Below, piece by piece: positions 3,731-26,923 of a stretch of DNA of 35,425 nucleotides. The stretch lies in assembly GCA_020072925.1 (NCBI GenBank), contig JAIQGA010000045.1, forward strand, positions 1 through 35,425, in the 5' to 3' direction. The position numbers and the translations under genes were made by a program. Position 1 is the first letter of the stretch. Each line of letters begins with the position of its first letter. The stretch comes from Terriglobia bacterium. GTDB lineage: Bacteria; Acidobacteriota; Terriglobia; UBA7540. The notes under the pieces were generated by a model, which did no database searches, was not told where the DNA came from, and saw only the letters and a program-made list of their open reading frames with translations.

Positions 3731-4726
3731 TCACCGGGCTGACCGAGTACGGTGGTAGCCGTCGGGATGCTTCGTCTTCCACGTCCAGGCCGAGCGGATA
3801 ATCCCTCGCAGATCCGAATGACGCGGCTTCCAGCCGAGGTCGCGGCTGATTTTCGCCGGGCTCGCCACCAGCACCGCGGGATCTCCGGCTCGGCGCGGAC
3901 TGACTTCGACGCGAAGCGTTCGGCGCGTCACCTCTTCGACGCCCCGTACAACCTCTCTTACCGAAAACCCCTCACCGTGACCCACGTTGAAGACCGCGCC
4001 ACGAATTCTGGGAAGGGCTCGAAGCGCCAGGATGTGAGCGCGAGCGATGTCCCGAACATGCACGTAATCCCGCACGCAGGTGCCGTCCGGGGTTGGATAA
4101 TCATCGCCGTAAATATGAAAGGTCCTGTCCGAGTTTAGTGCCGCATCCAGCAGGCGGGGCACGAGATGCGTTTCCGGCCGGTGGTCCTCGCCCAGTGCGC
4201 CGACTGCGCCGGCGGCGTTGAAATAGCGGAGCGCCACCCAACGGAGCCCGTGGGCGTGTTGATACCATGCGAGCGCGCGTTCAATCACCAGCTTGGTCTC
4301 GCCATAGGGGTTGATGGGCGTCAGCGGGTGCTCTTCCGTGATCGGGACCTCTTTCGGCTCCCCATACACTGCCGCGCTGGACGAAAAGACGAGCTTTTGA
4401 ATGCCACACTCTACCAGAACGTCCAAAAGCGTGATTGTGCCGCTGACGTTGTTGCGATAGAAAAGGCCCGGGTTCCGCATGGATTCATCCACCAAGGCCT
4501 TGGCTGCAAAATGCATTACCGCTTCAATGCGGAATTTCCGGCACACACGCTTTACGGTCGCCGCATCAGCGATATCCCCCTCGATCAGTTTGACACGCTT
4601 GACGATCGCCGCTCGATGCCCCGCGCTGAAGTTGTCAAAGGCCACCACCGAGTGCCGGGCGTTGACAAGTTCCGAAGCGCAAACGCTCCCCACGTAACCC
4701 GCGGCACCTGTCACCAGGATGTTCAT
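3731..4726 (-). CDS. galE: UDP-glucose 4-epimerase
   Basis: An extended short-chain dehydrogenase of 331 residues that interconverts UDP-glucose and UDP-galactose with tightly bound NAD. The Rossmann motif GAAGYVGS spans about residues 7-14, the catalytic Ser lies in FSSSAAVYGEP (115-117), and the YxxxK pair is Tyr141/Lys145 in NPYGETK. RYFNAAGA and the C-terminal DGTCVRDYVHVRDIA block are typical of GalE. It lies downstream of ugd on the same strand with a gap of 111 bases. Together they supply UDP-galactose and UDP-glucuronate, which makes them a natural adjunct to the divergent exopolysaccharide operon. The start is an ATG with GAGAGG about 12 bases upstream. Confidence 0.95.
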   Translation of the reverse strand: MNILVTGAAGYVGSVCASELVNARHSVVAFDNFSAGHRAAIVKRVKLIEGDIADAATVKRVCRKFRIEAVMHFAAKALVDESMRNPGLFYRNNVSGTITLLDVLVECGIQKLVFSSSAAVYGEPKEVPITEEHPLTPINPYGETKLVIERALAWYQHAHGLRWVALRYFNAAGAVGALGEDHRPETHLVPRLLDAALNSDRTFHIYGDDYPTPDGTCVRDYVHVRDIARAHILALRALPRIRGAVFNVGHGEGFSVREVVRGVEEVTRRTLRVEVSPRRAGDPAVLVASPAKISRDLGWKPRHSDLRGIIRSAWTWKTKHPDGYHRTRSAR

Positions 4727-4837
4727 TTTCCGGTAAACCTCTCCCCGTTCTTAATGGTTTCCAACGTCGTTGTATCAGAATTCCGGGTCCATGCCACTTG
4801 AATTTCGCCTATGCGGCGCTGGGACTGGGCAGGAAGG

Positions 4838-6145
4838 CTATCGGCGTCCCACACCGAAATACCGGAAGCCCAGGCTCTTGACCATCTCGATGTCGTAAAC
4901 GTTCCGCGAATCCACCAGCACATCGCCACGCATGGCGCGCTTGACCTCGGCAAGATCGAGGTTTCTGAATTCGTTCCATTCCGTAGCGAGGACAACAGCG
5001 TCGGCAGCTTCCGCCGTCTCCAGCGGGCCGCGGCAAAAGCAGACTCGTTCGCTGTTGAGGACCGCCTGGGCTTCGGCGCACACCTCCGGGTCATATGCGC
5101 GCAATCGGCAGCCCTCCTTGAGCAAGGCCTGACAAATCACGATGGCCGTCGATTCCCTAATATCGTTGGTGTTCGGTTTGAAGGAAAGACCCCAAACGGC
5201 AATGGTTTTTCCTTCCAGCGCGCCAAGTCCCTGTCGCAACTTGTACAGGACGACCTGGTGCTGGCGGGCGTTCACCCTGAGCGCGGTATCCACCAGGGAA
5301 AGCTCGACGTTCGCCTGCCGCCCCATTTGGACCAGTGCGCGGCAATCCTTGGGGAAGCAAGACCCCCCGAACCCGGGCCCCGGGTGCAGAAACTTGGGGC
5401 CGATGCGACGGTCCATGCCCAGGGCTTTCGCCACGATGTGGACGTCGATATTCAGGGCGTCGCAGAGATTCGCGATTTCGTTGATGTAGGAGATCTTGAC
5501 CGCCAGAAATGAGTTCGCGGCGTACTTGATCAGCTCGGCGGTCTCCAGCGTCGTAAAGACAAAGGGCGTCTCGATCAGGTAAAGCGGGCGATAAATCTCT
5601 TTCAATATCCTGGCGCCGCGCTCGGTTTCCGTGCCAATGATGACGCGGTTCGGCCGCATGAAGTCCTCCAGAGCGGAACCCTCGCGCAGGAACTCCGGGT
5701 TGACCGCCACCTCGATGTCGGCCGCAGGACCCCGCTGGCTTCGGATCAGGGCCCCCAGTCGACGCGCCGTACCAACCGGCGCGGTGCTTTTCATCACGAT
5801 CAATTTGAAGCTGTCAAGGTTCTCGGCGATCTCCTTGCCCACCGACTCAATCTGCGAGAGGTCGGGATTACCGTCCGGGAGGCTGGGCGTCCCCACGGTG
5901 ATAAACACCACCTGCGCGTTCCGAACCGCACTACCCAAATCCCGCGTAAAGCGCAAACGCCCGCGCGCGACGTACCGCTTGACCAAGTCTTGCAGACCCG
6001 GTTCGAAAAAGGGCACCTGTCCGCTCTGGAGTTGGCGGACGCGGCCTTCGTCGATGTCGACGCATGTGACCTCCATGCCCAGGTCCGCAAACCCCGAGCC
6101 GGTCACTAAACCCACATACCCTGTTCCAACAATGGCAAGTTTCAA
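4838..6145 (-). CDS. ugd: UDP-glucose 6-dehydrogenase
   Basis: A 435-residue NAD-dependent dehydrogenase that oxidises UDP-glucose to UDP-glucuronate in two steps. The N-terminal dinucleotide motif GTGYVGLVTG begins near residue 7. The central helix has the family residues in AELIKYAANSFLAVKISYINE. The catalytic cysteine is Cys263 in GFGGSCFPKD, followed by the C-terminal UDP-binding domain with VWGLSFKPNTNDIRES. All expected catalytic motifs are intact and the length is normal. The start codon is TTG at 6143-6145; a GGAGG sequence about 10 bases upstream supports it. The gene reads away from the polysaccharide export genes and shares with them the 6146-6628 control region. Confidence 0.96.
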   Translation of the reverse strand: MKLAIVGTGYVGLVTGSGFADLGMEVTCVDIDEGRVRQLQSGQVPFFEPGLQDLVKRYVARGRLRFTRDLGSAVRNAQVVFITVGTPSLPDGNPDLSQIESVGKEIAENLDSFKLIVMKSTAPVGTARRLGALIRSQRGPAADIEVAVNPEFLREGSALEDFMRPNRVIIGTETERGARILKEIYRPLYLIETPFVFTTLETAELIKYAANSFLAVKISYINEIANLCDALNIDVHIVAKALGMDRRIGPKFLHPGPGFGGSCFPKDCRALVQMGRQANVELSLVDTALRVNARQHQVVLYKLRQGLGALEGKTIAVWGLSFKPNTNDIRESTAIVICQALLKEGCRLRAYDPEVCAEAQAVLNSERVCFCRGPLETAEAADAVVLATEWNEFRNLDLAEVKRAMRGDVLVDSRNVYDIEMVKSLGFRYFGVGRR

Positions 6146-6628
6146 AGTCCGATACCTCCATGAAGCGCTGACCCAAAACTCATCTCCTTCCGGTCGCGCC
6201 GCAACTTATGGCAACGTTTCCTACCGGGCGGCCGGTGGAAGATAAGGGGTTGTAAGCACATAATACACCGACAATGACTTTCCCAGCCCGTACAGCCTTC
6301 TGCCCTCGCTGTGTAACACCGATGCCGCGCTCCAGCGCGCTCCGGGTGCTTCATCAGTAGATATTCCGGATGGGACCGCAAGAAGCGCACCAGCTCGTCC
6401 GGGCCCACCGCCTACTTCACCGCGAGCGAAGGTTTCCTTGACAGCCTAAGCGACACGGAGGTAGACTCTGGCACCTGAGTCAGAAAGAGGAAGCGCTGCC
6501 GGCGCGGGGCATGACGCGTCGGAGTGTTGCGCCGACAAAGGGGTTTCCGGGCTAGCTCGTTCTCTTTATGTTCATCGTCAGCGGAGTGTCGCGGGGGGGC
6601 TTTCTGCTGGTTAAAACGCTAGAGGTAA
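6146..6628. other. Divergent control region between ugd and the polysaccharide operon
   Basis: A 483-base non-coding stretch lies between two divergent transcription units. It contains the ugd ribosome-binding site (GGAGG, minus strand, 6156-6160) and, toward the plus-strand operon, a TTGACA-18-TAGACT promoter candidate at 6438-6467. Short ORFs in it (for example 6142-6408 minus and 6568-6789 plus) show no recognisable domain. Immediately before the export gene AGAGG lies about 6 bases from the ATG. No obvious operator palindrome stands out. Confidence 0.55.
6438..6467 (+). promoter_or_regulatory. Candidate sigma-70-type promoter of the exopolysaccharide operon
   Basis: A perfect TTGACA (6438-6443) is followed after 18 bases by TAGACT (6462-6467), which keeps the key T, A and final T of the -10 box. 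It lies about 160 bases upstream of the first gene of the plus-strand operon and points the right way. No competing site of similar quality was found in the same gap. Confidence 0.5.
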
Positions 6629-7756
6629 ATGAAAACCAGAATGCCCAAAACGAGAACGGCAAAGTCAGGATTCTCTTTGCGGGGAGCGCACGTGGCTTCG
6701 AGTCCATCCCAGGCCCTGCGCGATATGGGCCCAGCATTGCTGGTTGCAGTGCTCCTGGTGGCCATCTCCCTTCGTGCACAGGATCCTAACCCGGTTCCCG
6801 AGGAACGGGCCAGCCGCCTCGATTTGCCCGCGTCGCCGTCGTCTAACCACCTTCCAAGCGCGAGCGACGTCATTATCAGCCCTGACGACATGCTGGATTT
6901 GTCGGTTCTGGATGTTCCGGAATTCTCCGGCCACTACCGCGTGAGTCCGACAGGATCCATCACGCTACCCCTACTTCAGAGCCCAATTCCCGCCGCAGGG
7001 CTCACACCCAACGAGCTCTCCCAGGCGATCAGCGAGAAACTGCGAGCGGGCGGTCTCGTGAACAACCCCCAAGTCACAATTTCGGTTAGGGAATCCCGTG
7101 TCCATTCGGTGGCGGTGACCGGCGCGGTGAAAAAGCCCCAGATTTATCCTCTATTCAGCTCGACCACCCTTCTCGACGTGCTGTCTCAGGCTGAGGGCTT
7201 AACGGAGGATGCGGGCCCCACTGCCGTGGTCACGCGCGGTCAGATTGCCCTGGCAAGGATCAAGAAAGAAGGGCAATGCGAGCGACCAGCGCACCCGGAG
7301 GTTTGCCCCGCTACGCTCAGTGTGGATCTCGGGAAGCTCCTGGAAAGTGGGGACCCGCAATCCAACGTCGTTCTCTATCCGGGTGATCGCGTGACCGTCC
7401 CCCGAGCGGGGATTATTTACGTTGTGGGGGCGGTGAACCGACCCGGTGGATTCCCACTCAAGAGTGACCAGAAAGAAATGACCGTCCTCAAGGCCCTTGC
7501 GCTTGCCCAGGACTTGAAGACCTCCGCCGTTCGAAATAAAGCCCTGATCATCCGGAGAGATTCTGCGCAGCCAGGAGGAAAGGAAGAAATTCCCGTCGAC
7601 TTGAAGAAGATTCTTTCCAGGCGAGCCCCTGACGTCCCGCTCGTACCTCATGACATCCTCTTTGTTCCGGATAGCTCCAGCAGGAAGGCGCTGATGCGTG
7701 GCGCGGAGGCTGCCGTCCAAATGGCCACGGGCGTTATCATCTGGCGCTTGCCTTAG
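6629..7756 (+). CDS. Polysaccharide export protein (Wza-like, Poly_export/SLBB)
   Basis: A 375-residue secreted or periplasmic protein. A basic N-terminus and a hydrophobic run (MGPALLVAVLLVAISLRAQ, about residues 33-51) form a Sec-type signal peptide with likely cleavage after LRA. No lipobox cysteine is visible, unlike E. coli Wza. The Poly_export domain starts at ISPDDMLDLSVLDVPEFSG and runs to VTISVRESR. SLBB-type beta-grasp repeats follow (VAVTGAVKKPQIYPLF and IYVVGAVNRPGGFPL). The family forms the outer-membrane channel for capsule or exopolysaccharide. It is the first gene of the operon and is followed after 34 bases by the tyrosine autokinase, its usual partner. The ATG at 6629 is supported by AGAGG just upstream. 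Confidence 0.9.
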   Translation: MKTRMPKTRTAKSGFSLRGAHVASSPSQALRDMGPALLVAVLLVAISLRAQDPNPVPEERASRLDLPASPSSNHLPSASDVIISPDDMLDLSVLDVPEFSGHYRVSPTGSITLPLLQSPIPAAGLTPNELSQAISEKLRAGGLVNNPQVTISVRESRVHSVAVTGAVKKPQIYPLFSSTTLLDVLSQAEGLTEDAGPTAVVTRGQIALARIKKEGQCERPAHPEVCPATLSVDLGKLLESGDPQSNVVLYPGDRVTVPRAGIIYVVGAVNRPGGFPLKSDQKEMTVLKALALAQDLKTSAVRNKALIIRRDSAQPGGKEEIPVDLKKILSRRAPDVPLVPHDILFVPDSSSRKALMRGAEAAVQMATGVIIWRLP

Positions 7757-12878: not shown

Positions 12879-12905
12879 GCGAGAAGCGATGAGCGGTGAA
12901 CAAGT

Positions 12906-14339
12906 ATGGGGTCAAGGACAGCAGCTTTCGCAGAGATTCCGCAAAGCCCGGCCCGCACTTCCAACGGCCGCAAGGGCTTCAAGAGCCCTATTATTTGCGG
13001 GGCCATCGGTGTCGTTGTTTTCCTTGTGCCGTTTCGTACCGTGCTCATTCAGTTTTCTCAAAAGGCCTTGGGGACGGAATTCTGGGGCAATTACGCAAAA
13101 GAGTGCCTGCTTATTGCCATTCTGTTTTGGACGACGTTGAGGGTCCTGCTTTACCCTCAACTCAGAGAGGTGGCGCGCCGCCACCTACTTGTTGGGGGAC
13201 TTCTCCCCTTCCACCTCTTCTACATGTACATTGTCCTCAGGTTTCTCTATGGCTTGACCGTAGAATGGCGCCTCGCGGGCCTGGGCCTGGCCGTCTACGC
13301 GGCATACGCAGTTCTGTTTCTAGCCGTCCTTCTCAACGGGCTTTCACTTTCCGAGATGACAACTCTAACCTCAGCCCTGCTAATGTCTGTGCCCTTGACT
13401 GGGGCAGCCGCGCTCTTTGAAGTTGTTACGGGCTATGAATTCGGGCCCTTCGAGCCGGCCTTCAACCCCGCCAGTAGTGCCGCCGTGGTCATCTATAGGC
13501 GGATATCTTCTCTGACCGGGAGCTCGATCCACCTCGGTCTCTATCTGGCCATGCTCCTGCCCCTCCCGGTCAGTTTGCTGCTCGACCGGGGCCCGCGCCG
13601 GTCACTGGTCCAGGTGCTATCCATTATGTTTGGCCTTTTTGGATTGGCAGTCGCTTATTCGCGAGGAGCATGGGTGTTATTTATCCTGGCGATTGCAGTT
13701 CTGGGGACTCTCAAGCGCAGCGCCAAACTGCTTGTTGGAGCCGGAGCATTATTGCTGGGGGCAGTCGCCCTAATCATTGCCCTGAATCACTTCGCGCCAC
13801 AGGGAATGTACGCCCAGCGCTTTGCCACCATCATGAATTGGAACCGGGACCTGGCAAACGTCGCGCGCCTTGAAACATGGTCAGCAGATATGCAGATTGC
13901 GCAAAAAAACCTTCTGTTGGGGTACGGACTCGCCACGACCGGAAATGCCCCATTGAAATTCGGCTTGCCGAGCATCACCAACACCGAGAACTCTTACCTC
14001 AAGCTCCTTGTCGAAGGCGGGATACCGGCCTTGGCTCTGTTTCTTTGGATGTTTCTTAGCTTTTGGATCATGGGCTATCGGGCGCGCAAATATCTTTCAG
14101 GGAATGCTCGCAGTGTCGCGGAAGGGATTCTGGCGGCCCTGGCCGGGACGGCGGCAGAAATGTGGGTTTATGGAACACTTGAAACCCAGATTGGGAGCTG
14201 CATCTTGTGGTTCTATTTTGCGTACCTGTTTGTTGCCTATGTCACGACTCGTCGGAATCTGGCAAACCAACACTTGACCCAGCGAGACCAGGCAAATTCC
14301 CTCTACGCGCCTGGTAACGCGTTGTCCCGAAACCCATGA
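12906..14339 (+). CDS. O-antigen ligase / polysaccharide polymerase family protein (Wzy-like), second copy
   Basis: A 477-residue polytopic membrane protein with about eleven hydrophobic helices. The family signature is AVAYSRGAWVLFIL and, in the periplasmic loop, NLLLGYGLATTGNAPL followed by NTENSYLKLLVEGGIPALALFLW, the counterpart of the HNxxxxxxxExG block. It is not a close copy of the preceding polymerase: shared motifs are at comparable positions, while the rest differs. The stop overlaps the start of the flippase gene (ATGA, 14336-14339), so the two are translationally coupled. One of the tandem pair may act as polymerase and the other as ligase or as a second-linkage polymerase; sequence alone cannot tell which. 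Confidence 0.85.
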   Translation: MGSRTAAFAEIPQSPARTSNGRKGFKSPIICGAIGVVVFLVPFRTVLIQFSQKALGTEFWGNYAKECLLIAILFWTTLRVLLYPQLREVARRHLLVGGLLPFHLFYMYIVLRFLYGLTVEWRLAGLGLAVYAAYAVLFLAVLLNGLSLSEMTTLTSALLMSVPLTGAAALFEVVTGYEFGPFEPAFNPASSAAVVIYRRISSLTGSSIHLGLYLAMLLPLPVSLLLDRGPRRSLVQVLSIMFGLFGLAVAYSRGAWVLFILAIAVLGTLKRSAKLLVGAGALLLGAVALIIALNHFAPQGMYAQRFATIMNWNRDLANVARLETWSADMQIAQKNLLLGYGLATTGNAPLKFGLPSITNTENSYLKLLVEGGIPALALFLWMFLSFWIMGYRARKYLSGNARSVAEGILAALAGTAAEMWVYGTLETQIGSCILWFYFAYLFVAYVTTRRNLANQHLTQRDQANSLYAPGNALSRNP

Positions 14340-15991
14340 CCCCCAAGGCGCCAAGCGAATCCAAGGATCCTGCTTCTGCCGTCGTGGATCGTCCGGCGGC
14401 AGACCTCATCTCCGGCTATTCATTGAGGCTCGAGAGGATTGGGAAGCTCGGGATCCTGATGGCGGTGCTGACCGTCCTGGGTCAATTGACAGGCTTGGTG
14501 CGCGAGGCCGCGATTGCCTTCTTCCTGGGAGCGACGGGGCGCACCGACACATTTATCGCCGCTTACCAGCCGATTGAGGTTCTCACCAGCGCCATTTTAT
14601 TGTCCATGTCCTTCGGGGTTCTCCCCTTAATCCTGGAGTATCGACGAGATTTCGGTCCGGCGGTCGCCGTACAAATGACGCGACGACTTCAGTACGGGAC
14701 CGCAGCCAGTTTCGTGGGCGTCTGCGTCCTGCTGTATCTTGGAGGCGTGTGGATATTGCACCAAAGCGATCCCCACCTGGGACCTCTTCAGGTTCATCAG
14801 GCGCTCCGTCTGTGGCACAGGATGGTGCCCGCCGTTGCACTAGCCAGCTTAACGGCCTTTTTTAGCGCTGAACTTATTGCCGCCGAACGGTTCGTGTACC
14901 CAGGATTGAACTCCTTCTTGCTGAACAGCTCTATTGTGCTTTGTGGGGTAATCGGCTGGAAGGTTTTCGGTGTCGAGGCATTTGCCTTGGGCGTAATCAT
15001 GGGCTTCCTGATGCAACTGTTGGTCCAGGCCCTGGCAACGAGCTCCGAGCGGCGGCGAGCTGACCTGAAACCGGAACGTCAGATACCCCGAGTTTGGAGA
15101 GATGGGTTGCGGTTTGTTGCGCCCGTCTTCGTGGTGTTTTCTTTAAGCTGTATGAGTGCCATCGTACCCCGAAGAGTCGCCTCTGCCTTAGGAGAAGGGC
15201 AGATGTCAATTCTCGCCTATGGGACCCGCGCGGTGACGGCCGTGTATCTTTTGGGCAGCTTCGCAATTTCGTACCCTTACTCCTCCTTCCTTGCTCGGGC
15301 GGTTGCGTCTGGTGAAGCCGAACAGGCGCGGAGCTTGTTCCGTTCTCTGGTTCGTGCTGCGTTCCTTTTTTCTCTCCCCGCCATAGCCGCCTTAGCTCTC
15401 TTAAGGGCGCCTCTGGTCCGCATCCTTTTTCAGCGGGGGGCTTTCACCTCTGACGCCTCGGCGGCCGTCACCTCGATCCTGCCCTATCTTTCGCCGTTAA
15501 TCCTGGGCGCTCTGGTCTCGGACGTAATCGGCCGGTGTTTGATTGCCACAAAGCGCATCTTCTCTGCCTGCATTCTGTATAGTATCTTGGTGGCGCTTTC
15601 TTGGATTCTTTCGGAGGTGTGCCAGTCCTTCTGGGGATTGAAGGGGACCGCCGCCGGTTGGGCTCTGGCCAGTTGCCTCAGCGGTCTATTGTTCCTGGTC
15701 GGCTTGGCGAGACAAATGGGAGGACGCGCTTTTCGAGGCATTACCTCATCCATTGGAAGGATTCTCTTAGCTGGCTTGCTGTCTTGCGCCGTCATGGCCG
15801 TTTCATCAAGATTGTTTCTAGCCTGGCGCCCCCGCGCATTGGCCTCGGACATCCTGGAGATCGTTGTCACTTTAGCGGCAGGCGGGCTGGCGTTCATTGG
15901 GTTGGGGCTCCGTTTGGGCATCCCCGAGCTCGTCTCAATGATCGGCAGCTTTAGGGGGAAATTGGGGACATATGAACCCCCCTCGGTCTGA
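14336..15991 (+). CDS. MurJ/Wzx-family lipid-linked oligosaccharide flippase
   Basis: A 551-residue protein of the MOP exporter superfamily with about 14 hydrophobic helices. The N-terminal block GQLTGLVREAAIAFFLGATGRTDTFIAAYQ is characteristic of the MurJ/MviN type. Mid-protein features are SMSFGVLPLI, FVVFSLSCMSAIVPRRVAS and FQRGAFTSDASAAV, the last a MurJ-like signature before helix 9 or 10. Its place among polymerase, epimerase and glycosyltransferase genes indicates flipping of the undecaprenyl-linked repeat unit rather than housekeeping lipid II transport. Start and upstream stop overlap by 4 bases. The gene ends inside the first 20 bases of the 2-epimerase gene. Confidence 0.88.
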   Translation: MTPKAPSESKDPASAVVDRPAADLISGYSLRLERIGKLGILMAVLTVLGQLTGLVREAAIAFFLGATGRTDTFIAAYQPIEVLTSAILLSMSFGVLPLILEYRRDFGPAVAVQMTRRLQYGTAASFVGVCVLLYLGGVWILHQSDPHLGPLQVHQALRLWHRMVPAVALASLTAFFSAELIAAERFVYPGLNSFLLNSSIVLCGVIGWKVFGVEAFALGVIMGFLMQLLVQALATSSERRRADLKPERQIPRVWRDGLRFVAPVFVVFSLSCMSAIVPRRVASALGEGQMSILAYGTRAVTAVYLLGSFAISYPYSSFLARAVASGEAEQARSLFRSLVRAAFLFSLPAIAALALLRAPLVRILFQRGAFTSDASAAVTSILPYLSPLILGALVSDVIGRCLIATKRIFSACILYSILVALSWILSEVCQSFWGLKGTAAGWALASCLSGLLFLVGLARQMGGRAFRGITSSIGRILLAGLLSCAVMAVSSRLFLAWRPRALASDILEIVVTLAAGGLAFIGLGLRLGIPELVSMIGSFRGKLGTYEPPSV

Positions 15992-20827: not shown

Positions 20828-21472
20828 ATGGCGGAGGTGACTCGCCCGAAGATCGAGAGGGCTCACCCGGCCTGGCGTGCAATCAAACGGCTGCTCGACG
20901 CAGTGACAGCGGCTTTTCTGCTGCTGGTGCTTTCCCCCCTTTTCGTGCTGCTGGCAATCCTTATTAAGCTCAGCTCGCCCGGGTGCGTATTCTATCGCTG
21001 GAAAGTCGTAGGAAAAGGGGGACGATACTTCACGAGCTACAAGTTCCGAACCATGTTCGAGAATGCTGACGCGCTCAAAGAGGACCTGCTCAGCCGAAAC
21101 GAAATGAAAGGACCGATGTTTAAGATTAGGAACGACCCGCGAATTACCTCGGCGGGCCGTTGGCTCAGAAGATATAGCCTCGATGAGCTGCCGCAACTTT
21201 GGAGTGTGCTCAAGGGCGACATGAGCCTGGTAGGGCCTCGGCCGCCCCTGCAGACTGAATTTGAGCGATTCACTGAATGGCAGAAGAGAAAGATTCAGGT
21301 CAAACCCGGTATTACTTGTCTATGGCAGATCAGGGGCCGCAACCGCATCGACGACTTCGATGATTGGGTCAGACTCGACATCGAGTACATCGAACACTGG
21401 AGTTTATGGCTGGACTTCAAGATCCTGATCAAAACTATTCCCGCGGTTCTCACCGCGCGAGGAGCTTCCTGA
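20828..21472 (+). CDS. Short-form phosphoglycosyl transferase (bacterial sugar transferase), catalytically intact
   Basis: A 214-residue monotopic enzyme that moves a sugar phosphate from a nucleotide sugar to undecaprenyl phosphate, the first step of repeat-unit assembly. After the re-entrant hydrophobic helix (AAFLLLVLSPLFVLLAILI) come KFRTM (72-76), NDPRITSAGRWLRRYSL, the catalytic dyad Asp119-Glu120 in LDELPQLW, SLVGPRP and KPGITCLWQI. All are intact and the length is that of the catalytic domain alone (PglC/WbaP C-terminal size). AGGAG precedes the ATG by about 8 bases. It is the more credible initiator of the two phosphoglycosyl transferases in this locus. Confidence 0.93.
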   Translation: MAEVTRPKIERAHPAWRAIKRLLDAVTAAFLLLVLSPLFVLLAILIKLSSPGCVFYRWKVVGKGGRYFTSYKFRTMFENADALKEDLLSRNEMKGPMFKIRNDPRITSAGRWLRRYSLDELPQLWSVLKGDMSLVGPRPPLQTEFERFTEWQKRKIQVKPGITCLWQIRGRNRIDDFDDWVRLDIEYIEHWSLWLDFKILIKTIPAVLTARGAS

Positions 21473-21482
21473 GGGGGTGGAG

Positions 21483-22601
21483 ATGCGTGCACTGGTTACG
21501 GGCGGGGCCGGGTTTATTGGCTCCCACTTGGTTGACCGGCTGCTTCGAGACGGCCTGCAGGTGAGGATCCTCGATTCGCTTCAATCGCGCGTGCACCCAC
21601 ACGGCCTTCCGGCATGGTGTCCTGCGCAAGCGGAGTTTGTGCGCGGAGACGTCACGGACAAGGTCACCGTCGAGCAGGCGCTCCAGGGAGTCGATATCGT
21701 CTTCCACGAGGCGGCTTACCAGGATTACATGACCGACTTCAGCCAGTTTGCCCAGGTGAATGTCACCGGCATTTCTCTGGTTTACGAATCAATTGTCCGC
21801 CACAAGCTTCCGGTCAAGAAGGTGATCGTGGCTTCCTCGCAAGCAGTCTATGGCGAAGGCCAGTTTGAGTGCGCCCAACACGGTTTCTTTATGCCGCGCC
21901 CCAGATCCCGCGAGCAACTGCAGAGGGGAGAATGGGAAGTCAAGTGTCCTCAATGTCAGCGCGTTTCAAAGCCGTTGCAGCTTGAAGAAGATCATCCGAA
22001 CCCGTTTAACCAGTATGCGGTTTCCAAATATGGCGGGGAGCGAATGGCCTTAGGACTTGGCTGGATCTACCAGATTCCTACGGTGGCGCTGCGATATTCC
22101 ATCACCCAGGGGCCGCGCCAGTCGCTCTACAACCACTACTCGGGAATATGCCGCATCTTCACCAGCCGGTTGCGCGAGGGGAAACCACCGATTATCTACG
22201 AAGACGGACTGCAGACGCGGGACTTTGTGCACGTGTCCGACGTGGTCGAGGCGAACATGTTGGTTCTGACCGACGCGCGAGCCGACTACCAAGCTTTCAA
22301 CGTGGGTAGCGGAAACCCCGTGACGGTTCAGAGCTACGCGGAGCGCCTCGGTCAGGCGATCAATCCCCGCATCGTACCCGAGGTCACGGGCGAGTATCGC
22401 GTTGGCGACAATCGCCACAGCGTTTCAAGCGTTGATAGGCTGAAAGCTCTGGGCTGGAAACCCCAAAAGACATTGGACGCCATTGTGGTTGATTTTTTGG
22501 GCTGGGTAGATTCCCTGGGAGGCGCGCCCGCGGAGGCTTTTCAGGCCGAACAAGTCATGCGGGACAGCGGCGTAGTCCAGCGGGTGAATCCAAATCGATA
22601 G
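21483..22601 (+). CDS. NAD-dependent sugar epimerase with zinc-ribbon insertion (dTDP-L-rhamnose 4-epimerase-like)
   Basis: 372 residues of the extended SDR family. GGAGFIGSHL (from residue 8) is the NAD motif, SSQAVYGEG the Ser region, and Tyr178/Lys182 in NQYAVSKY the catalytic pair. Between the Ser and Tyr blocks there is a long insertion (about 126-168) with Cys130, His133 and CPQC (155-158), which looks like a small zinc site. This insertion, with the pattern REQLQRGEWEVKCPQC, occurs in WbiB-like dTDP-L-rhamnose 4-epimerases and relatives. The ATG at 21483 is preceded by GAGGGGGTGGAG; a GTG two codons earlier is less likely. It probably makes a nucleotide sugar for the glycosyltransferases, but the exact substrate cannot be read from sequence. 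Confidence 0.8.
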   Translation: MRALVTGGAGFIGSHLVDRLLRDGLQVRILDSLQSRVHPHGLPAWCPAQAEFVRGDVTDKVTVEQALQGVDIVFHEAAYQDYMTDFSQFAQVNVTGISLVYESIVRHKLPVKKVIVASSQAVYGEGQFECAQHGFFMPRPRSREQLQRGEWEVKCPQCQRVSKPLQLEEDHPNPFNQYAVSKYGGERMALGLGWIYQIPTVALRYSITQGPRQSLYNHYSGICRIFTSRLREGKPPIIYEDGLQTRDFVHVSDVVEANMLVLTDARADYQAFNVGSGNPVTVQSYAERLGQAINPRIVPEVTGEYRVGDNRHSVSSVDRLKALGWKPQKTLDAIVVDFLGWVDSLGGAPAEAFQAEQVMRDSGVVQRVNPNR

Positions 22602-22856: not shown

Positions 22857-24284
22857 GTGGGCAGGAGCTTCCTCAAGTACGGGCTGCTCCTCGGTGACCT
22901 CGTACTCATTGTTGCCGGGTTCCGAGTCGTTTATTGGCTGAGGTTTGCGCTCCTGGGGTTCGTGGCAGTGGAGGCAAGAACGACTTTCGCCAGCTATTGG
23001 CCAATCATCGTGTTGGCGCTGGGCACCTGGATCCTGCTGTTTCTGACCCTTCACTTGGATTCCTTCTCTATCCTTGGGTGGGATTTCCCACTAGCTGTGT
23101 CGCGACTCCTGACAGGCTTGGCGACTCTCACCATTGCCTTGCTCGCCGGCTCCTACGTAGCGAAGGCTTACTATTCGCGCCTGGCATTGATCTTCTTTCC
23201 GCCTGTGCTTGGGGTATTCCTTGTCGGCAACCGTCTTGCCTATCAGGCCCTCGTCAAGCGGCTGAAACAATACGGGGTGGGCCTCCGGAGGGTGGCGATT
23301 GTCGGGCAATCGGACCTGGCCCGGGAACTCGGGCGGCGGGTCCTTGAGCACAAAGAGCTCAACTATGAGCTGGTCGGCTATATTTTTCCTTCCCTGAATC
23401 GCAACCATGCACAAGAGCAAGCGGCGAACCTGGAAACTGGCACTTCCGAGGAAATGGCGCGCGCCTTGGCGGGCCGGAAGATTGACGAGCTGATTTTCAC
23501 GACGCCGATCCGTCGTGACACCGGGGTGTTGGAGTTTGTCGCGTACTGCCAAAAGCAGGGCATCCAAGTCAAGCTGATTCCCGAATACTATGATCTGCAC
23601 ACCCGTCAGATTGAGAGCTTCAGCATAGACGGGATCCCGATTTTTGAGTTGCGAGAGACTTCTTTTGATCATTTTACCCGATTGTTGAAAGCCATTACGG
23701 ACTATCCGATTGCCGTAGCCCTTTTCATACTCTTCTCTCCTCTGATAGTGGCGATCGGCGTCGCGCTGGGCGTGCTGGGGATGGATCGGATCATCGGGCG
23801 CGAACGGCGTGTGGGGCTCCGCGGGCGTCCTTTCCTCATGTATCGCTTCAATGTGAGGGCGGCCGAGACGTCGCAACCCGCCACCGCTCGTGGCACGAAG
23901 GCGCGCTTCTGCCGTTTCCTGCACCGCTACAGCCTTTCCGAGCTGCCCCAATTGTGGAATGTGCTGAAGGGCGATATGAGCATTGTGGGGCCGCGGCCGG
24001 AGACTCCGGAACGGGTCCGACACTATTCCGAATGGCACATGCGGAGGCTGCAAGTCAAGCCCGGCATCACGGGACTGGCACAGGTCAGAGGGCTGAGAGG
24101 CCTCGACTCTTCAGACGAGAAAACCAAACAAGACCTGGAATACGTTGCCACTTTCTCGCCCGTTCTGGACCTGATCCTGATCGTCGCAACCTTTGGCACC
24201 TTGCTTCGGCGTGGCAAGAGCCGGCTTCCCGCTTCCGATAATACTTCCCTGCCTCCGCTGCGGGAGGGCTTCACGCGGATTTAA
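22857..24284 (+). CDS. Long-form phosphoglycosyl transferase-like protein with altered catalytic motifs
   Basis: A 475-residue protein with the WcaJ/Cps2E layout. Four N-terminal membrane helices lie at about 8-30, 47-65, 85-103 and 109-127. A Rossmann-like CoA_binding_3 domain follows (RRVAIVGQSDLARELGRRV). The catalytic domain starts after the helix VALFILFSPLIVAIGVALGVL. Its last part is well conserved: LPQLWNVLKGDMSIVGPRPE and KPGITGLAQVRG. Upstream of that, the usual KFRTM is RFNVR (330-334), the DPRxTxxG block is missing, and the catalytic Asp of the Asp-Glu dyad is Ser361 (LSELPQ). The family attaches the first sugar phosphate to undecaprenyl phosphate; this member may be inactive or changed. 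The start is GTG with AAGGGG upstream. Confidence 0.85.
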   Translation: MGRSFLKYGLLLGDLVLIVAGFRVVYWLRFALLGFVAVEARTTFASYWPIIVLALGTWILLFLTLHLDSFSILGWDFPLAVSRLLTGLATLTIALLAGSYVAKAYYSRLALIFFPPVLGVFLVGNRLAYQALVKRLKQYGVGLRRVAIVGQSDLARELGRRVLEHKELNYELVGYIFPSLNRNHAQEQAANLETGTSEEMARALAGRKIDELIFTTPIRRDTGVLEFVAYCQKQGIQVKLIPEYYDLHTRQIESFSIDGIPIFELRETSFDHFTRLLKAITDYPIAVALFILFSPLIVAIGVALGVLGMDRIIGRERRVGLRGRPFLMYRFNVRAAETSQPATARGTKARFCRFLHRYSLSELPQLWNVLKGDMSIVGPRPETPERVRHYSEWHMRRLQVKPGITGLAQVRGLRGLDSSDEKTKQDLEYVATFSPVLDLILIVATFGTLLRRGKSRLPASDNTSLPPLREGFTRI

Positions 24285-24318: not shown

Positions 24319-25346
24319 ATGCTGATTGTTCGGACACCCGTTCGGATCAGTTTTGCTGGGGGCGGCACCGACTTCCCCTCTTATTACGAGCGCTTCGGCG
24401 GCTTGGTGCTTTCGACCGCCATCGACAAATACTTTTACACCGTGCTCACGGAACGCGAGGATCGGCAAACGCAGATTATCTCCTCGGACCTGAAGACGCT
24501 GGAGACTTGCGAACAAATCAGCCGAATGGAATTTCAAGGGCTCGATCTCGAAATTCCCTTCGCCGTGTTGAAATACTTTCAGTGCGATGTGGGAGTGAAT
24601 CTCTTTCTGGCTTCGGAAGTGCCCCCAGGCACTGGGCTGGGGTCCTCGGCCGCAGTCTGCGTCAATGCCCTCAAAACGCTCTCCGTCTTTTTGGGACGCG
24701 ACCTTTCGGACCGGGCATTGGCGGAAACCGCCTTGCCGTGGCATTAGGCGGCTTGAACATCCTCAAATTTCATTCTCAGGGGGTCAGCGTCGAGGCCTTG
24801 CACCTGCCGGAAGAGCTGCTATTGGACCTCGAACAGAATCTGATGCTTTTCTTTACCGGGAGTTCGCGCAACTCCGCCGAAATCCTGGAAGGGCAGGATC
24901 GGTCCATCGAGCATGGAGAAAATGGCGTGTTAGAGGCGTTGACATCCCTCAAGGGGCTGGTCCCCCTGATGCGCGACGCCTTGCGCGCCGGCGATCTGGA
25001 CAGCTTCGGACGCCTGCTGGACAAGAGTTGGGCCATCAAGAAGCGAGTCTCGAGCAAGATTTCGACGTCGCAGATCGATCGCATCTACGAGGTCGCCAAA
25101 CAGTGCGGAGCTCTTGGAGGCAAGATCACTGGTGCTGGAGGCGGAGGATTCCTTCTCCTTTATTGCGAGCGAGAGAAACAGCCTCGCCTCCGCGAAGTCC
25201 TGAAGGAGTTCGGGCTGAAAGAAATGATTTTCCACTTCGATATGGCAGGGACCCGGGTTGTCTATAATGACCCGTTCTTCGATTCGGACACGCGGGGGGG
25301 AATCCGCTGGGTATTGTCCACAACGCTGGACGGGCTCAAGGCTTGA
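24319..25346 (+). pseudogene. HddA-like GHMP sugar kinase, frameshifted by an internal deletion
   Basis: Two frames together encode one GHMP kinase of the D-glycero-D-manno-heptose-7-phosphate kinase type. The first part (24319-24747) starts MLIVRTPVRISFAGGGTDFPSYY and reaches the ATP-binding PPGTGLGSSAAVCVN motif, then LAETAL and a TAG. The second part, in another frame from about 24736 to 25346, resumes at VALGGLNILKFH and ends with the GHMP C-terminal motif ALGGKITGAGGGGFLLLY. Family members have about 18-22 residues between these points, including GKQDQ with the catalytic Asp. That segment is absent, and the frame change implies a loss of 3n+1 bases. AGGA precedes the ATG by about 9 bases. 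The gene is followed by HddC- and GmhB-like genes. Confidence 0.85.
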
Positions 25347-25474: not shown

Positions 25475-26263
25475 GTGTTGTCAAAGCAGATTGACAAAGC
25501 TTTCTTGCTGGCTGCAGGTCTTGGGACCCGGCTCAGGCCCCTCACGGATCGAATCCCAAAGTGCCTGGTGCCGATTTGTGGCAAACCGTTACTCTCAATC
25601 TGGCTTGAAATTTGCCGATCCCTGGGCGTGAGGGAAGTTCTCATCAACACCCATCATCTTGCGGATCAGGTCAGGACCTGGGCTCGGACTCAGGACACGA
25701 CCGTTAGCATCACCTTGGTTCACGAAGACACCCTGCTCGGCAGCGCTGGGACCGTCACGGCTAATCGGAATTTTGTGCAGAGTCCGCAGGATTTCTACGT
25801 CTTCTATGCGGACAACCTGGTTCATGCAAACCTTCACGCTTTGACCTTGGCGCACTCTCAACATCGCGGTGTTGTCACCCTCGGACTCTTTCGAACGACG
25901 TCTCCTCGCGCGTGTGGCATTGGGGCACTTGATAGTTCTGGACGGGTGACCAGTTTCGAGGAGAAGCCCGTGACCCCAAAGTCTGACTTGGCCAATGCCG
26001 GAATGTTCGTGGCCCGTCAGGAAATCTTCGATTTCCTCACTCCCGAGCGATTTGCGGATTTCGGCAAGGACGTTCTCCCCAGTCTGGTGGGCAAGATGCG
26101 GGGCGTGATTTTGGAGGGTTACATCCGCGATGTTGGCACACCTGACAACTATCAACGGGCGCTGGAGGAATGGCCCGCGATCTGCCGGAATGCGGAGCGC
26201 GGCTCAGTCAATAAAGGGTATGCTCCTTATTTGGGAACGCGAGCCCACGATATTGAGCGGTGA
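25475..26263 (+). CDS. HddC-like sugar nucleotidyltransferase
   Basis: A 262-residue nucleotidyltransferase of the GT-A-like NTP_transferase family. The nucleotide loop is FLLAAGLGTRLRPLTDRIPKCLVPICGKPL (from residue 10), which holds the signature GxGTRLxPLT and the Lys of PKCLVP. VHEDTLLGSAGTV, FYVFYADNLV (metal-binding Asp in YADN) and SFEEKP follow, then YIRDVGTPDNYQRA at the end. It would join GMP or another nucleotide to a sugar 1-phosphate. With the HddA- and GmhB-like neighbours, GDP-D-glycero-D-manno-heptose is the likely product; a mannose-1-phosphate guanylyltransferase remains possible. The start is GTG at 25475 with AAGGGA about 5 bases upstream. Confidence 0.82.
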   Translation: MLSKQIDKAFLLAAGLGTRLRPLTDRIPKCLVPICGKPLLSIWLEICRSLGVREVLINTHHLADQVRTWARTQDTTVSITLVHEDTLLGSAGTVTANRNFVQSPQDFYVFYADNLVHANLHALTLAHSQHRGVVTLGLFRTTSPRACGIGALDSSGRVTSFEEKPVTPKSDLANAGMFVARQEIFDFLTPERFADFGKDVLPSLVGKMRGVILEGYIRDVGTPDNYQRALEEWPAICRNAERGSVNKGYAPYLGTRAHDIER

Positions 26264-26332: not shown

Positions 26333-26923
26333 GTGAAATACGTTTTGCTCGATCGGGACGGAGTCATCAACCAAAGAATCCAGGGCGGCTACGTGACCGC
26401 CTGGGAACAGTTTGTGTTCGCTCCAGGAGCCCTCGAAGGGTTGCGACTCCTGGCGCTGGGTGGCTTCTCCGCGGTCGTCGTATCTAACCAGGCCTGCGTC
26501 GGGAAAGGGCTCATAACTTCCTCTGACCTTGATGAGATCACTCGCAAGTTTCTCAAGAGGGTCGAAGAGCAGGGGGGTCGCATTGAGGCCGTGTATTACT
26601 GCCCCCACCGAAAGGACGAGGACTGCAAGTGCAGAAAGCCGGAACCCGGCTTGCTCCTCGAGGCACAGCGCAGGCACCAATTCAGCTTTGCCAGCACATT
26701 TCTGATCGGCGATTCCGAGACCGACTTGCTGGCCGCCCACGCCGTTGGTTCTCCTGCGCTGCTGATTGCGGCCAGTAACTCGGTCCTTCTTGGGGACGTT
26801 GCTTGGCGGCCTCGCGCGACCCTCCCTAACCTCCTGGCCGCTGCACAATTCATCATGGATATTCCCGGGGGGGAGTTGGAGAGAATTCAAAACCCTCCAG
26901 TTAGCATCGGGCGGCAGAGTTAG
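26333..26923 (+). CDS. gmhB: D-glycero-D-manno-heptose 1,7-bisphosphate phosphatase-like HAD protein (GmhB family)
   Basis: A 196-residue HAD-IIIA phosphatase. The nucleophile motif is DRDGVIN with Asp7 and Asp9, motif II is VVVSNQACVGKG, and the zinc loop is Cys90, His92, Cys98 and Cys100 in CPHRKDEDCKCRKPEPG. GDSETDLLAA carries the metal-binding Asp127 and Asp131. This is the standard GmhB layout. The family removes the C7 phosphate from heptose 1,7-bisphosphate, the step between the kinase and the nucleotidyltransferase encoded just upstream. No sedoheptulose-7-phosphate isomerase (GmhA) is encoded in this window, so the pathway is incomplete here. The start codon is GTG. Only 3 bases separate its stop from the next ATG. 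Confidence 0.88.
   Translation: MKYVLLDRDGVINQRIQGGYVTAWEQFVFAPGALEGLRLLALGGFSAVVVSNQACVGKGLITSSDLDEITRKFLKRVEEQGGRIEAVYYCPHRKDEDCKCRKPEPGLLLEAQRRHQFSFASTFLIGDSETDLLAAHAVGSPALLIAASNSVLLGDVAWRPRATLPNLLAAAQFIMDIPGGELERIQNPPVSIGRQS

Follow-up and report, generated by a model that had tools for sequence, protein, structure and literature searches.

The window (the whole 35,425-nucleotide stretch of Terriglobia bacterium DNA that was analysed) carries a gene for a large protein related to the phosphoglycosyl transferases (PGTs), here called LgPGT*, together with the following genes and positions.

20828..21472, + strand: short PGT, 214 aa, with KFRTM, DPRIT and LDELPQL intact and Asp119-Glu120 in place
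21477..22601, + strand: NAD-dependent epimerase/dehydratase, between the two PGT genes
22857..24284, + strand: LgPGT*, large PGT-like protein with Ser-Glu replacing Asp-Glu; GTG start, 475 aa
23841..23852, + strand: YRFN (Arg330, Asn332) replacing YKFR; the Arg330 codon (23844-23846) is at the position of PglC Lys59
23922..23924, + strand: His356, at the position of Arg88 of PglC, which binds undecaprenyl phosphate (UndP); variable across the clade
23937..23942, + strand: Ser361 (TCC, 23937-23939) and Glu362, the position of the catalytic Asp-Glu dyad, aligned to PglC Asp93-Glu94
24319..25346, + strand: HddA-like GHMP sugar kinase, directly downstream; frame broken by an internal deletion of ~52 bp
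25475..26263, + strand: sugar-1-phosphate nucleotidyltransferase of the HddC/mannose-1-P guanylyltransferase type
26333..26923, + strand: HAD phosphatase of the GmhB type (146.9 bits, cut-off 178)

The LgPGT* reading frame contains FLHRYSLSELPQLWNVLKGDMSIVGPRPE, and RYSLSELPQLWNVLKGDMSIVGPRPE is present in its product. Its domain order is that of a large monotopic PGT (Lg-PGT), with a PF02397 domain (147.7 bits, cut-off 27) lying C-terminal to PF13727 (50 bits, cut-off 25) and a four-helix bundle, and the DX12P motif of the re-entrant helix is formed by Asp282 and Pro295 (Asp in 46/46 and Pro in 40/46 clade members). The NCBIfam model TIGR03025 (EPS_sugtrans) is narrowly missed at 288.6 against a cut-off of 295.55; three other clade members score 285.1, 273.1 and 219.8. 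An AlphaFold2 model of the window protein, built on a 57-row alignment (mean pLDDT 84.8, pTM 0.71), comprises four long N-terminal helices (3-32, 44-64, 77-102 and 108-138), a Rossmann-like domain (144-249), two strands (251-266), a re-entrant helix (272-306) and the PGT domain. The model matches WbaP (8t53) over its whole length (E 5.6e-16, Z 22.2) with an rmsd of 9.3 over 394 residues that is due to domain placement, and its catalytic domain matches PglC (8e37) with a Z of 20.4 and an rmsd of 3.1 over 178 residues at 35% identity. Because the model's alignment consists almost entirely of intact enzymes, little weight should be put on its geometry at the altered site.

Residues lost and kept at the active site

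Canonical monotopic PGTs use an Asp-Glu dyad in a two-step reaction: the Asp attacks a UDP-sugar, a covalent phosphosugar-Asp intermediate is formed, and the phosphosugar is then transferred to UndP. The first-pass annotation had proposed that in LgPGT* the catalytic Asp is replaced by Ser, with Glu next to it, that KFRTM has become RFNVR, and that the DPRxTxxG block is missing while the downstream parts are retained. The codons at 23937-23942 read Ser-Glu, alignment to PglC (8g1n) agrees (Ser361 = Asp93, Glu362 = Glu94, Arg330 = Lys59, His356 = Arg88), and the altered and absent blocks are confirmed in the 475-aa product. Beyond what had been noticed, the equivalent of the UndP-binding Arg88 is also lost, so that both the Lys59 and the Arg88 of canonical enzymes are missing (Arg330 and His356).

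The same pattern recurs in a comparison of 47 readable clade members with 99 ordinary Lg-PGTs. The nucleophile position is Thr in 34, Ser in 12 and Arg in one member of the clade, against Asp in 99/99 ordinary enzymes; the Lys59 position is Arg in 47/47 against Lys in 99/99; and the Arg88 position is a scatter of Val, Gln, Ala, Glu, Asp and His against Arg in 99/99. Arg61 (the Arg of KFR) has become Asn, Asp or His, Met63 is mostly Asp or Glu, and the loop with DPRxT is deleted in ~40/47 members. The Glu of the dyad (Glu94) is present in 47/47 and the GPRP arginine (Arg111/112) in 45/47, and the Thr of PGIT and the GxR arginine are also retained. On the clade tree, the Arg88 site has undergone 19 changes (79th percentile of sites), the Arg112 site one, and Glu94, the GxR arginine, Asp426, Tyr429 and Asp438 none. 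The clade has acquired a short signature of its own here, R-[LF]-[ND]-x-[DE], in which Arg330 is invariant and Asn332 and Asp/Glu334 are near-invariant.

The split between lost and kept residues becomes intelligible in light of their published roles: Arg88 and Arg145 guide UndP binding (PMC10519829), Met63 and Arg79 of a mobile loop are predicted to hold uracil (PMC12550135), and K59, R88 and R111 serve substrate orientation (PMC12802240). Judged by sequence, LgPGT* has lost the nucleophile, the contacts to uridine (Met63 and most of the mobile loop with Arg79) and one of those to UndP, and it retains the Mg/diphosphate side and the fold. We infer that LgPGT* would be unable to run the two-step reaction as described for PglC. 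The single Arg at the nucleophile position (LRELPQ) belongs to a member, L075, that groups within the clade and keeps its gene order. This variant implies that a hydroxyl nucleophile is not strictly needed, an implication that is itself weakened because L075 is a long branch; a strict need for the hydroxyl is thus made less probable rather than ruled out.

A class-wide lineage under purifying selection

A search of 41 related genomes returned close homologues, each carrying Ser or Thr and 33-52% identical along the whole protein in the first alignment, and a profile built from seven of these cleanly splits LgPGT* from ordinary Lg-PGTs (E < 1e-125 for every member found in the class sample). 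LgPGT* occurs in 11/39 genomes of the window's family, in 6/89 and 27/250 genomes of two other families, and in 22/399 sampled genomes of the class; in one list of matches most entries cover only the Rossmann part (141-249), and families missing there are uninformative. The variant is class-wide, not local. The 47 readable homologues come from three families of one class and from one named Acidobacteria MAG, YP3.bin101, whose locus L075 has LgPGT* at 3906-5375. Among 396 genomes sampled across the phylum, two further strong matches outside the class (L170 and L171) both have an intact Asp, and in a scan of other phyla for the Ser/Thr-Glu pattern, L075 alone lacked the Asp among the best 80 places, every other readable place having Asp. 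The window's genome carries a second LgPGT* (SISELPQL) at 5886-7307 of a 13-kb contig (L042, contig C209) that holds no short PGT.

In a tree of the N-terminal half, from which the catalytic domain was excluded, all 23 members used form one clade (SH-aLRT 100), and a second tree without the motif columns unites all 47. The clade tree calls for five or more changes at position 361, all of them between Ser, Thr and the one Arg and none back to Asp. Neither chance nor sequencing error can reasonably account for Ser or Thr at this place in 46 of the 47 readable homologues. Nine pairs give an omega of 0.08-0.20, with the catalytic half no different from the whole gene. LgPGT* is evidently a subfamily of large monotopic PGTs that is conserved and has a single origin, and the check set by the first-pass annotation, whether the variant recurs in related genomes as a conserved clade, came out positive. 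A sporadic single-genome mutation, the finding by which the first-pass annotation would have been refuted, was rejected on the strength of the 47 homologues in a single clade, and pseudogene status on that of the omega values and the full-length frames.

Neighboring genes and a putative heptose-type cassette

The short PGT of the same locus had been described as intact, and so it is, with YKFRTM, DPRIT and Asp119-Glu120 at 20828-21472. The variant clade usually stands beside such an enzyme: of the 37 LgPGT* loci with 5 kb of upstream sequence, 29 have a short PGT in that interval on the same strand, against 0/98 ordinary Lg-PGT loci (78 from many phyla and 20 of the same class, inspected over 6-8 kb), a difference for which Fisher's tests are extreme but their p-values not to be taken at face value, the loci being kin by descent. 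The linked short PGTs keep Asp-Glu and the KFR/KLR lysine in 31/31 cases. These short PGTs, for example those at 9897-10808 in L040 and at 20828-21472 in the window, fall into two separate clades, 19 with GPRM and 12 with GPRP, which take the same position beside LgPGT* in different genomes. It appears that LgPGT* and the kinase have remained a pair through one or more exchanges of the short PGT. Several LgPGT* loci have no short PGT within 9 kb and more. In L075, an intact short PGT lies upstream and the kinase downstream. At another locus (L155, genome G052), a 652-aa ORF with an intact C-terminal PGT domain (12898-14853, minus strand) stands ~2 kb upstream of LgPGT*, replacing the short PGT.

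The link to the downstream kinase is stricter still. An HddA-type GHMP kinase directly follows on the same strand in 46/46 LgPGT* loci whose sequence continues beyond LgPGT* (L043, a truncated copy, was excluded), against 2/99 control Lg-PGT loci, both of those matches being distant. In the window, the kinase (24319-25346) is frame-shifted: compared with related genes it is ~52 bp short, and the conserved RPVGKQDEYAAA stretch is among what is missing. The orthologues of other genomes are intact, as is the kinase of the second pair in the window's genome (L042, 7372-8448); the lesion may be real decay or an assembly error. Past the kinase, the usual order in LgPGT* loci is the nucleotidyltransferase and then the HAD phosphatase, and a GmhA-related SIS isomerase lies close upstream of LgPGT* in most loci of two other families. 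These neighbors suggest a resemblance to the GDP-heptose pathway. Every pathway match falls below its curated equivalog cut-off, so "heptose-type" is our reading of the set: an intact kinase orthologue (L037) scores 199.5 against 600 for HddA (NF049969), with GHMP kinase domains present; the isomerase of related loci scores 119.7 against 209.45 for GmhA (TIGR00441), with its SIS domain present; and the HddC match reaches 70.9 of 300 bits. A literature search on this gene set returned nothing relevant.

The epimerase/dehydratase between the two PGT genes is of a type found in 5/24 loci, with a GalE type in 10. These ten GalE relatives lie upstream of LgPGT*, in most cases in the interval that separates LgPGT* from the short PGT. 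The window also encodes a GalE at 3731-4726 on the minus strand (402.5 bits, above cut-off), and the flippase of its polysaccharide locus (14336-15991) is a MurJ match (PF03023, 107.7 bits).

Candidate roles and known systems

Selection on the gene, the lack of variation in the other half of the site and a gene order that stays fixed together argue that LgPGT* still does something. On balance we think that it is probably a repurposed Lg-PGT that has given up the canonical covalent chemistry and serves as a membrane-bound, ligand-binding part of a heptose-type cassette whose chains are started by an intact PGT. As such a membrane-anchored, non-initiating component, LgPGT* would bind a nucleotide, diphosphate-Mg or a sugar-nucleotide through its kept half-site and/or its cytoplasmic domain and would couple the making of the special sugar with the assembly of the chain, with UndP being loaded by the separate intact PGT. 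The first-pass view of LgPGT* as a non-catalytic or repurposed paralogue thus fits the clade and its purifying selection as far as repurposing goes; the absence of catalysis we infer from the residues. Three observations sit awkwardly with the preferred reading. The invariant half-site and the new R-[LF]-[ND]-x-[DE] signature exceed the needs of a pure scaffold; the 5 changes at position 361 are nearly all exchanges of Ser and Thr, with Asn, Gly and Ala never seen there, which may indicate that the hydroxyl is used; and the heptose reading is built on below-cut-off matches.

With about half of the active site invariant and position 361 restricted to Ser or Thr apart from the one Arg, an altered enzyme is possible, and this is the strongest rival, although we hold it to be rather unlikely. 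Here Ser/Thr361, or an in-line attack aided by Glu362, would transfer a sugar phosphate from the cassette's own NDP-sugar (GDP-heptose-like), perhaps to an acceptor other than UndP. The repeated Ser-Thr exchanges, the invariance or near-invariance of Glu94, Arg112, the Thr, the GxR arginine, the Asp and the Tyr, and the new Arg330, Asn332 and Asp/Glu334 all speak for an active site in use, the loss of uridine contacts fits a change of nucleobase, and the tight linkage with kinase and nucleotidyltransferase could supply the donor. A phospho-Ser/Thr ester is far stabler than an acyl phosphate, so rapid turnover by such an enzyme would need other help. Ser, Thr and Asp are also good helix N-cap residues, and Ser/Thr may persist at 361 for structure; N-capping would explain this state without catalysis, but Asn or Gly would then also be expected. 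There is precedent among membrane transferases for a Thr nucleophile that bears a phospho group, as in MCR-1 (PMC5216409). Against the altered enzyme stand the Arg of L075 (a long branch), the free drift of the position that binds UndP in PglC, and the separate intact PGT usually encoded alongside. Its most specific form, a monotopic PGT whose nucleophile has gone from Asp to Ser/Thr and whose donor has gone from a UDP-sugar to an NDP-heptose of its own operon, would constitute a second mechanism in the monotopic PGT fold, and we regard it as doubtful.

Alternatively, LgPGT* could be a partner dedicated to the short PGT, in regulation or in assembly, lending to a mixed complex the four-helix bundle and a UMP-sensing domain that short PGTs lack. 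The association in 29/37 loci against 0/98 controls favors this, as do Lg-PGT dimers with a nucleotide-sensing DUF (PMC10942596) and the EpsZ-EpsW precedent (PMC12802240), yet the partner has been exchanged between two clades of short PGT and is missing nearby from several loci. Given those two clades and the stricter kinase link, there are simpler readings than a partner tied to one short PGT, and we consider such a role improbable; the link with an intact short PGT, pointed out in the first-pass annotation, is real and conserved. Degeneration, sporadic mutation or assembly error, to which the broken kinase next door might point, is highly implausible for a change shared by 47 homologues of one clade with full-length frames and low omega.

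The Asp-Glu dyad defines the monotopic PGT superfamily, and PF02397 matches are routinely annotated as initiating transferases. Since LgPGT* forms a widespread, selected lineage without the nucleophile, that annotation is probably wrong for its members. LgPGT* also provides natural variation from which the nucleotide-, Mg- and UndP-binding parts of the site may be told apart, and it points either to a first pseudo-PGT serving in a sugar cassette or to a mechanism new to these enzymes. In the literature searched, which takes in few subscription journals, no PGT pseudoenzyme or inactive PGT paralogue is described.

The closest relatives of LgPGT* are the large monotopic PGTs (WbaP [8t53], WcaJ and EpsZ; TIGR03025 or PF02397 plus PF13727), with which it shares the domain order, four transmembrane helices, a Rossmann-like DUF ending in the two strands at 251-266, the DX12P re-entrant helix, GPRP, PGIT and the dyad Glu, and from which it differs in lacking the Asp nucleophile, Lys59, Met63, Arg88 and the DPRxTxxG loop. 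The small monotopic PGT PglC (8e37, 8g1n) has the same catalytic-domain fold; it differs from LgPGT* by these same catalytic residues and in having no N-terminal half. Control of PGTs by bound proteins or nucleotides has precedent in EpsZ, which is activated by bound EpsW (PMC12802240), and in the UMP-sensing DUF (PMC10942596), but the regulator there is a response regulator or the enzyme's own domain rather than a PGT homologue. The GDP-D-glycero-D-manno-heptose pathway of the Campylobacter capsule (GmhA, HddA, GmhB and HddC; PMC10680097) has the four activities suggested by the LgPGT* neighbors, whose below-cut-off matches leave the sugar putative; unlike the LgPGT* cassette, it has no PGT homologue.
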